A DNA stretch of 64,000 nt from Armatimonadota bacterium (GTDB taxonomy: Bacteria > Armatimonadota > Fimbriimonadia > Fimbriimonadales > Fimbriimonadaceae), in the NCBI GenBank assembly GCA_018268255.1, contig JAFDWX010000001.1:186001-250000 (forward strand), written 5' to 3'. The notes beneath the pieces are model-generated. The model did no database searches. It had not been told where the DNA came from and saw nothing but the letters and a program-made list of their open reading frames with translations. Every line of letters starts with the position of its first letter. Position 1 is the first letter of the stretch. A program made the position numbers and the translations under genes. Of this stretch, positions 16,684-17,590 are shown piece by piece.

Positions 16684-16724
16684 GAACGAACAGGCCGCAA
16701 AGTTCTGGGCGTCTCTATCTATAG

Positions 16725-16856
16725 TCGAATCCGACCATTCGGTTGGAGCGGGGGACCCGATCTTTGGGGCGTAGCGCTTAGCGCAGGATACTTTCGGTCC
16801 TAGCCCGTCAGCTAACTCCGTAGACACATCGAAAGAGGCTTCATGGTCGGAATCAC
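16725..16856 (+). promoter_or_regulatory. c-di-AMP riboswitch (ydaO/yuaA class)
   Basis: The conserved blocks of the ydaO/yuaA aptamer are all present in order. They are AGCGGGGGACCC (16747-16758), GGGGCGTA (16766-16773), a variable hairpin GCGC-TTA-GCGC (16774-16784), a second arm AGGA/TCCT (16785-16801), AGCCCGTCAGCTAACTCCGT (16802-16821) and GAAAGAGG (16831-16838). The closing stem is nine perfect pairs, TCCGACCAT (16730-16738) with ATGGTCGGA (16843-16851). It matches what I recall of the Bacillus ydaO aptamer almost block by block. In known cases c-di-AMP binding lowers expression. No intrinsic terminator follows, so control may be at translation. It precedes the genes at 16902 and 17267. 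Confidence 0.92.
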
Positions 16857-16901
16857 TCGGCCAATAGTCCTCGCGACATCAGAACCAGGAGGTTACGTAT
16901 C

Positions 16902-17243
16902 GTGTTGACGGAAGATAAATTTTTGAAGAACTGCCAAACCATCCGCGAGCAGGAGGCACCACCGATTCGCAAGGCACGGGAATTTTTGGCTCTTTCCCGC
17001 AAGATGCGCGGTTTGGGAACCCATCTGATGGATCTCGGGTTTCGGTCCCATCGCCAGCACCAGGATCGTCAAAAGCGGCGGTTTTGGGCTGCCGCCGCCA
17101 ACTTCTTTGGGTTCGCCAAGACGGCTCGGGAGGAAGCCCAGGCTGTTTTGAACGGAGCCCCAGCAAAACTCTCGTTCGGATACTCACCAAGGCCCTATGC
17201 TGATCCAGGCTGGGAACCCAACGCTAACGCGAGTGATCGCTAA
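16902..17243 (+). CDS. Unknown 113-aa protein behind the c-di-AMP riboswitch
   Basis: The GTG start has an ideal AGGAGG (16887-16892) nine bases upstream. The product is basic and helical, with a Lys/Arg/His-rich stretch at about residues 45-60 (RSHRQHQDRQKRRFW) followed by AAAANFFGFAKTAREEA. It ends in a Pro-rich tail (SYSPRPYADPGW-like, about 93-106). There is no signal peptide or long hydrophobic segment, so it is probably cytoplasmic. I do not recognise the family; it is not one of the potassium, osmolyte or cell-wall products usually behind this riboswitch. It is followed after 23 bases by the second gene of the unit. Confidence 0.75.
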   Translation: MLTEDKFLKNCQTIREQEAPPIRKAREFLALSRKMRGLGTHLMDLGFRSHRQHQDRQKRRFWAAAANFFGFAKTAREEAQAVLNGAPAKLSFGYSPRPYADPGWEPNANASDR

Positions 17244-17266
17244 CCAAGAAAAGCAGGAGGATTGCA

Positions 17267-17590
17267 ATGTCTGAAAACATGGAAGCTTGGAGATCGATGG
17301 ATGGTTCCGACGGATTTGTCTGTAAGCCGTTCATCCACATCATATTTCAACGAGGGCCGGTTCACGATCACGGCATCAATGGATGCCGAATCGAAGATGT
17401 GATTGAGGTTCTCCAAAACCGCCTGTTGGACCACCAGGGCCGAGAACTGGCTTGCGAGGAAAATGCGCAGGCTCTCTACCATTTGGATCTTGCCAGAGAA
17501 GCCCTTCTGCTCCGCCATCGTCGACGTGAAGACCAAGGCGTGCTGAATCAGCCGGAGCGGCACGTTAGCGGTGAAGGCGTCCCAGCTTAA
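17267..17590 (+). CDS. Small protein resembling the Acb2/Tad1-type hairpin family of phage signal sponges
   Basis: The ATG has AGGAGG five to six bases upstream, as strong as that of the preceding gene. The 107-aa product has a short strand (FIHIIFQRGPV, residues 22-32), a Gly-Xaa-Asn-Gly turn and a helix (NGCRIEDVIEVLQNRLLDHQ). A second helix pair reads ACEENAQALYHLDLAREALL and then LRHRRREDQGV. The pattern (F-Q-x-G-P, G-x-N-G, E-D-V-L, Q, A-C-x-E-N-A, A-L-x-x-L, R-x-x-x-R-x-x-x-G-V) matches what I remember of small phage proteins now named Acb2/Tad1-domain. Family members bind cyclic nucleotides or gcADPR isomers. The match is from memory; the ligand, if any, is unknown. Confidence 0.6.
   Translation: MSENMEAWRSMDGSDGFVCKPFIHIIFQRGPVHDHGINGCRIEDVIEVLQNRLLDHQGRELACEENAQALYHLDLAREALLLRHRRREDQGVLNQPERHVSGEGVPA

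Follow-up and report, generated by a model that had tools for sequence, protein, structure and literature searches.

A c-di-AMP riboswitch heads an operon encoding a chromosomal Tad1-family protein in the Fimbriimonadales (Armatimonadota)

INTRODUCTION

Tad1 (Thoeris anti-defense 1) proteins are hexamers that bind gcADPR or cyclic di- or trinucleotides and serve viruses and prophages as a weapon against nucleotide-based immunity. The locus analyzed here raises the question of what a protein of this family does in a bacterial chromosome behind a riboswitch for c-di-AMP. It lies in a window of 64 kb, i.e., the whole stretch of DNA that was analyzed, which is part of a 3.2-Mb genome of the Fimbriimonadales (Armatimonadota), soil and water bacteria that have been little studied. 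A first-pass annotation of the window had reported a riboswitch of the ydaO/yuaA class followed by a gene for an Acb2/Tad1-like small protein, and had proposed that the cell may use such a fold on its own messenger. The observation is confirmed by the analyses reported below, and the interpretation is supported as far as the sequence reaches.

RESULTS AND DISCUSSION

A full-length c-di-AMP riboswitch precedes two genes

An Rfam covariance-model scan of the 64 kb identified a full-length c-di-AMP (ydaO/yuaA) riboswitch aptamer at positions 16713 to 16842 of the plus strand (RF00379; model positions 1 to 134 of 134; 69.4 bits; E = 5e-14). This match was the only one in the window to reach the gathering level of any Rfam family, and its score is well above the gathering score of RF00379 (38 bits). 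The sequence blocks conserved in the class, previously recognized by inspection, are present. The class is known to form a pseudoknot, and in the window the loop strand CUUUCG (16791 to 16796, plus strand) can form six Watson-Crick pairs with CGAAAG (16830 to 16835), as read from the sequence. Riboswitches of the RF00379 class bind c-di-AMP with picomolar affinity (PMC7266159).

A nine-pair stem closing the aptamer had also been described. The complementarity exists, with positions 16731 to 16739 of the plus strand forming nine putative Watson-Crick pairs with positions 16843 to 16851, but this helix uses the 5' strand of P2 and is therefore an alternative to the aptamer fold rather than its closing stem. 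We considered the helix as a candidate expression platform and rejected it: chance is a possible origin, as nine pairs were reached in 13 of 500 shuffles, the helix was absent from the predicted minimum-energy fold, and inspection by eye of the relatives looked at revealed no counterpart. For 16 loci linked to Tad1, no consistent sign of regulation emerged when the partition functions of bound-like and free-like leaders were compared. The leaders are short and end at the Shine-Dalgarno sequence, and inspection of the leader in the window by eye revealed no intrinsic terminator, suggesting that the operon may be controlled at the level of translation.

The riboswitch heads an operon of two plus-strand genes separated by 23 nt, gene 1 (16902 to 17243; 113 amino acids; GTG start) and gene 2 (17267 to 17590; 107 amino acids; ATG start). 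Both have the perfect AGGAGG ribosome-binding site that had been noted (16887 to 16892 and 17255 to 17260, respectively, plus strand). Homologues were found for both open reading frames, and neither matched a model in Pfam or NCBIfam. The genes upstream of the riboswitch on the same strand are hutU, an arginase-family gene closest to hutG, and hutI, and those downstream of the operon on the opposite strand are thrB and thrC. These hut and thr neighbors indicate that the operon is not in a prophage setting, and chromosomal neighborhoods are also held in common among relatives.

Gene 2 encodes a homologue of Tad1

Searches of the PDB with the 107-residue product of gene 2 (phmmer) identified Tad1 (8kbb, E = 1.5e-7; 7uav, E = 1.6e-3) and gp184 (8y6v, E = 8e-5), and a profile of 26 sequences matched CmTad1 (E = 8.4e-11) and CbTad1 (E = 1.2e-7). 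Among phage genomes, tblastn reached the annotated Tad1 proteins of SBSphiJ7 and SPG24. The product matched phrog_2428 (E = 2e-17); all PHROGs families matched by gene 2 are unnamed, and gene 1 matched none. A pattern scan of IMG/VR for viral relatives of gene 2 confirmed none, distant ones still being possible.

The AlphaFold2 model of the product, which is of moderate confidence (pLDDT 70.8, pTM 0.59), contains β-strands at residues 17 to 20 and 23 to 27, which correspond to two of the four known from Tad1, and helices at residues 42 to 56 and 64 to 90 that form a hairpin of two long helices, the feature expected from the initial assignment. The best 20 Foldseek matches of the model were all Tad1 (best E value, 4.7e-5; TM score of at most 0.60 by query). 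Alignment to CmTad1 by VIA-align gave a Z score of 8.2 over 98 residues, which is modest in absolute terms and above the rows for unrelated proteins. No Acb2 entry appeared among the PDB sequence matches or the Foldseek and VIA-align matches listed. Thus, the Tad1 part of the proposed Acb2/Tad1 likeness holds by profile and by structure, and the Acb2 part found no match among those listed.

Each of the 78 members of the Tad1-like family has the arginines R83 and R87, and in CmTad1, CbTad1, and gp184 the aligned residues are likewise arginines. We take their counterparts to be R109 and R113 in the second helix of CbTad1, which are needed for ligand binding. The Tad1 fold could have been kept for a role other than small-molecule binding, such as contact with another protein, the partner perhaps being the small helical protein encoded just upstream of the Tad1-like gene at most riboswitch-linked loci (see below). 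The invariance of an arginine pair common with phage Tad1 argues against this explanation, which we regard as very improbable. Where dS could be estimated between close relatives, the dN/dS ratio of the Tad1-like gene was ~0.02 to 0.07. The gene is thus under strong purifying selection.

The riboswitch and the Tad1-like gene are repeatedly linked

A Tad1-like protein is encoded in 68 of 151 genomes, at 80 places, nearly all in two families of the Fimbriimonadales. Linkage was studied in a sample of 78 chromosomal Tad1-like loci, each of ~10 kb or less. RF00379 was found directly upstream of the Tad1-like gene and on its strand at 16 of these loci, which belong to 8 genera. The linkage seen in the window recurs in related genomes, where the first-pass annotation had suggested looking for it. 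A covariance model built solely from riboswitches with no known link to Tad1 was scanned over the loci (~760 kb) and detected 16 clear aptamers, every one of them upstream of a Tad1-like gene, on its strand, and at a distance of 48 to 806 nt. The same 16 loci score above the cutoff with RF00379 itself. By our own arithmetic, which assumes that a 3-Mb genome holds one or two aptamers, ~0.02 would be expected by chance.

In genomes G013 and G040, the riboswitch is followed directly by the Tad1-like gene, at 48 to 50 nt, and one or two small open reading frames intervene at the other linked loci. Linked groups differ in their flanking genes. On the tree, which is of low resolution (114 columns), about five changes of linkage are needed, at least two of them forced by strongly supported branches. 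The remaining 62 of the 78 loci have no riboswitch, indicating that the Tad1-like protein is not always under the control of c-di-AMP; an Rfam scan of 57 of the 62 found no riboswitch of any class adjoining the Tad1-like gene.

Two further observations concern the distribution of the gene. Several genomes of the g30 group (L085 to L114) carry two Tad1-like copies, one linked to the riboswitch and one without it, the unlinked copy having a different conserved neighborhood in which ruvC-like and mutL-like genes were recognized by eye in related loci. A record labeled as a Methanoregulaceae archaeon (L152; JADZEW010000008.1) contains a Tad1-like gene of the Fimbriimonadaceae type (80% identity) and itself matches genome G013 of family f1. 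This record is mislabeled or mixed.

Gene 1 belongs to a family frequently found behind RF00379

Iterative profile searches that started from the 113-residue product of gene 1, and covered the genes next behind RF00379 elements, collected 31 proteins of ~90 to 130 residues that form one family (MLTEFEVRR...RKARxLLRL...). In the 151 whole genomes, the family profile matched 38 places in 32 genomes (Fimbriimonadales; loci L180 to L279). RF00379 is immediately upstream at 31 of the 38, a proportion biased upward by a profile made from riboswitch-linked genes, although the search itself was genome-wide. The family is a frequent target of the RF00379 class, a point absent from the first-pass annotation. 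The single-sequence AlphaFold2 model of gene 1 consists of a short helix (residues 4 to 16) and a long helical hairpin (residues 20 to 51 and 55 to 83). Structure searches with this model returned generic hairpins and no specific structural relative. The family is an undescribed one of small three-helix proteins. The possibility that gene 1 encodes a second Tad1/Acb2-like protein was rejected, as hhalign gave a probability of 0.2% for the two families and only generic hairpins were matched.

Most of the riboswitch-linked members of this family occur without a Tad1-like gene, as would be expected if the riboswitch served the small helical protein and the Tad1-like gene were a passenger captured downstream, for instance from a phage. 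We consider this explanation unlikely, because the linkage is repeated, with the changes needed on the tree, and because the Tad1-like gene is itself the first gene in G013 and G040. Moreover, the g30 clade, G009, G019, and G075 have first genes from other families and still carry the Tad1-like gene, and the neighbors in the window are hut and thr rather than phage genes.

Classification by Pfam of the first genes behind RF00379 gave HisB in 18 of 88 cases, major facilitator superfamily (MFS) transporters in 6, and octopine-type dehydrogenases in 3. The HisB and MFS targets have no obvious tie to messenger binding and count against the explanation that we favor below, in which the operon handles c-di-AMP itself.

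The set of RF00379 elements also revealed other arrangements. As the commonest Pfam family behind RF00379, hisB (imidazoleglycerol-phosphate dehydratase) is an unexpected target (L033, L038, L042, L054, L187, L204, and others). The second RF00379 element of the genome under study (L001; G000:C2:231226-231364) precedes what appear by eye to be an ECF-type sigma factor gene and an anti-sigma-like gene, and the same arrangement was seen by eye at L061, from the same genus. Small helical proteins of a second set (ERxFVxxLVxxTRxLV...) are encoded directly behind RF00379 at L202, L239, L268, L270, L272, L278, and L190, and a third set (MSFVSQIMRKASIVER...) occurs behind RF00379 in the g30 clade.

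c-di-AMP as the candidate ligand

A diadenylate cyclase is encoded in the genome under study (E = 1.9e-38) and in 145 of the 151 genomes searched, i.e., in nearly the whole phylum. This genome lacks the c-di-AMP phosphodiesterase of the PgpH type (PF07698). The enzyme is patchily distributed: it is missing from 16 of the 25 searched genomes of the same family, but most of the sampled sister families have it. The presence or absence of PF07698 was considered as a correlate of the Tad1-like gene and rejected, since it showed no clear tracking across relatives and was confounded by kinship.

Published work on sponges bears on the ligand in both directions. The phage protein Acb2 has a high affinity for c-di-AMP, and the ligands of Tad1 homologues include cyclic dinucleotides, gcADPR, and cyclic trinucleotides, the binding of cAA (3'3'-c-di-AMP) by Tad1 being weak (PMC12043709). 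Acb2 of phage T4 binds 2',3'-c-di-AMP (~62 nM) (PMC12657218). The Acb4 sponge does not bind c-di-AMP (PMC11722364), and binding of this messenger by the product of gene 2 is therefore not to be assumed. The weak binding of 3'3'-c-di-AMP by the Tad1 that has been studied is counted against the explanation that we favor.

The affinity of Tad1 proteins for gcADPR and cyclic trinucleotides (PMC12043709) leaves room for another ligand. The Tad1-like protein might bind a defense nucleotide (gcADPR, cA3, or cGAMP) produced by a CBASS or Thoeris system of the cell itself and act as a brake on accidental activation, the riboswitch only coupling its expression to the envelope or osmotic state. A CD-NTase (SMODS) match was indeed found in the genome under study (E = 1.1e-11). 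However, SMODS was detected in 14 of 111 genomes, against 68 of 151 for Tad1-like genes, and in only 4 of the 16 genomes with a riboswitch-linked Tad1, and this explanation leaves the recurrent linkage to a single riboswitch class without a reason. We hold it to be possible and rather doubtful. As a correlate of the Tad1-like gene, CBASS was not convincing, since CD-NTases are rare and do not track the gene.

Because Tad1-family genes are found repeatedly behind a sensor of c-di-AMP, this messenger is the likeliest ligand. On balance, we favor the explanation that the locus belongs to the c-di-AMP regulon as a chromosomal operon in which the riboswitch in the 5' leader would control both genes, i.e., those for the three-helix protein and for a cellular Tad1-family protein. 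The latter would most likely bind c-di-AMP, or an adenine dinucleotide that resembles it closely, and would buffer or relay the same messenger that the riboswitch senses. If c-di-AMP switches the operon on, the result would be a negative feedback circuit; if c-di-AMP switches it off, c-di-AMP would lower its own sponge, leading to a switch-like response. These considerations suggest that cells apply a Tad1-type sponge to their own signal. That the arrangement is a homeostatic circuit, with a bacterial c-di-AMP sponge placed behind a riboswitch that senses the messenger it binds, and that phage Tad1 may descend from such a protein, is a plausible proposal that we put forward tentatively.

Significance and comparison with known systems

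If a conserved chromosomal branch of Tad1 has repeatedly come under a c-di-AMP riboswitch, such sponges would have a physiological role in the cell, and the level of c-di-AMP could be set by a means besides synthesis and hydrolysis. Such a branch also offers a testable source for the viral Tad1 proteins, and names a new class of riboswitch target and a new family of small proteins in a poorly studied phylum.

The riboswitch itself is an ordinary member of RF00379, with a full-length aptamer above the family cutoff. Known targets of this class are potassium, osmolyte, transporter, and cell-wall genes, whereas the genes at this locus encode a member of the Tad1 family and a small helical protein of an undescribed family; the literature searched contained nothing that connects Acb2 or Tad1 with the targets of c-di-AMP riboswitches. 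Similar to Tad1 (CmTad1, 8kbb; CbTad1, 7uav, 7uaw, and 8smd; phage SBSphiJ7), the product of gene 2 has the pattern FQxGP...GxNG...CxENA...RxxxR and belongs to the same sequence family, with the same predicted fold and arginine pair. It differs in an N terminus shorter by ~25 residues and in the location of its family in conserved bacterial chromosomal loci, 16 of them with a c-di-AMP riboswitch. The likeness to the phage sponge Acb2 (Vs.4) is one of proposed principle, the sequestration of a cyclic nucleotide by a small helical-hairpin protein; Acb2 is absent from the sequence matches and from the structure matches listed, and the product of gene 2 carries N-terminal strands of Tad1. Panoptes (OptSE) is likewise a bacterial circuit with a cyclic dinucleotide and a sponge. 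In Panoptes, however, the sponge is viral and acts as the trigger, whereas here the sponge-like gene is cellular and lies behind a sensor of the messenger.
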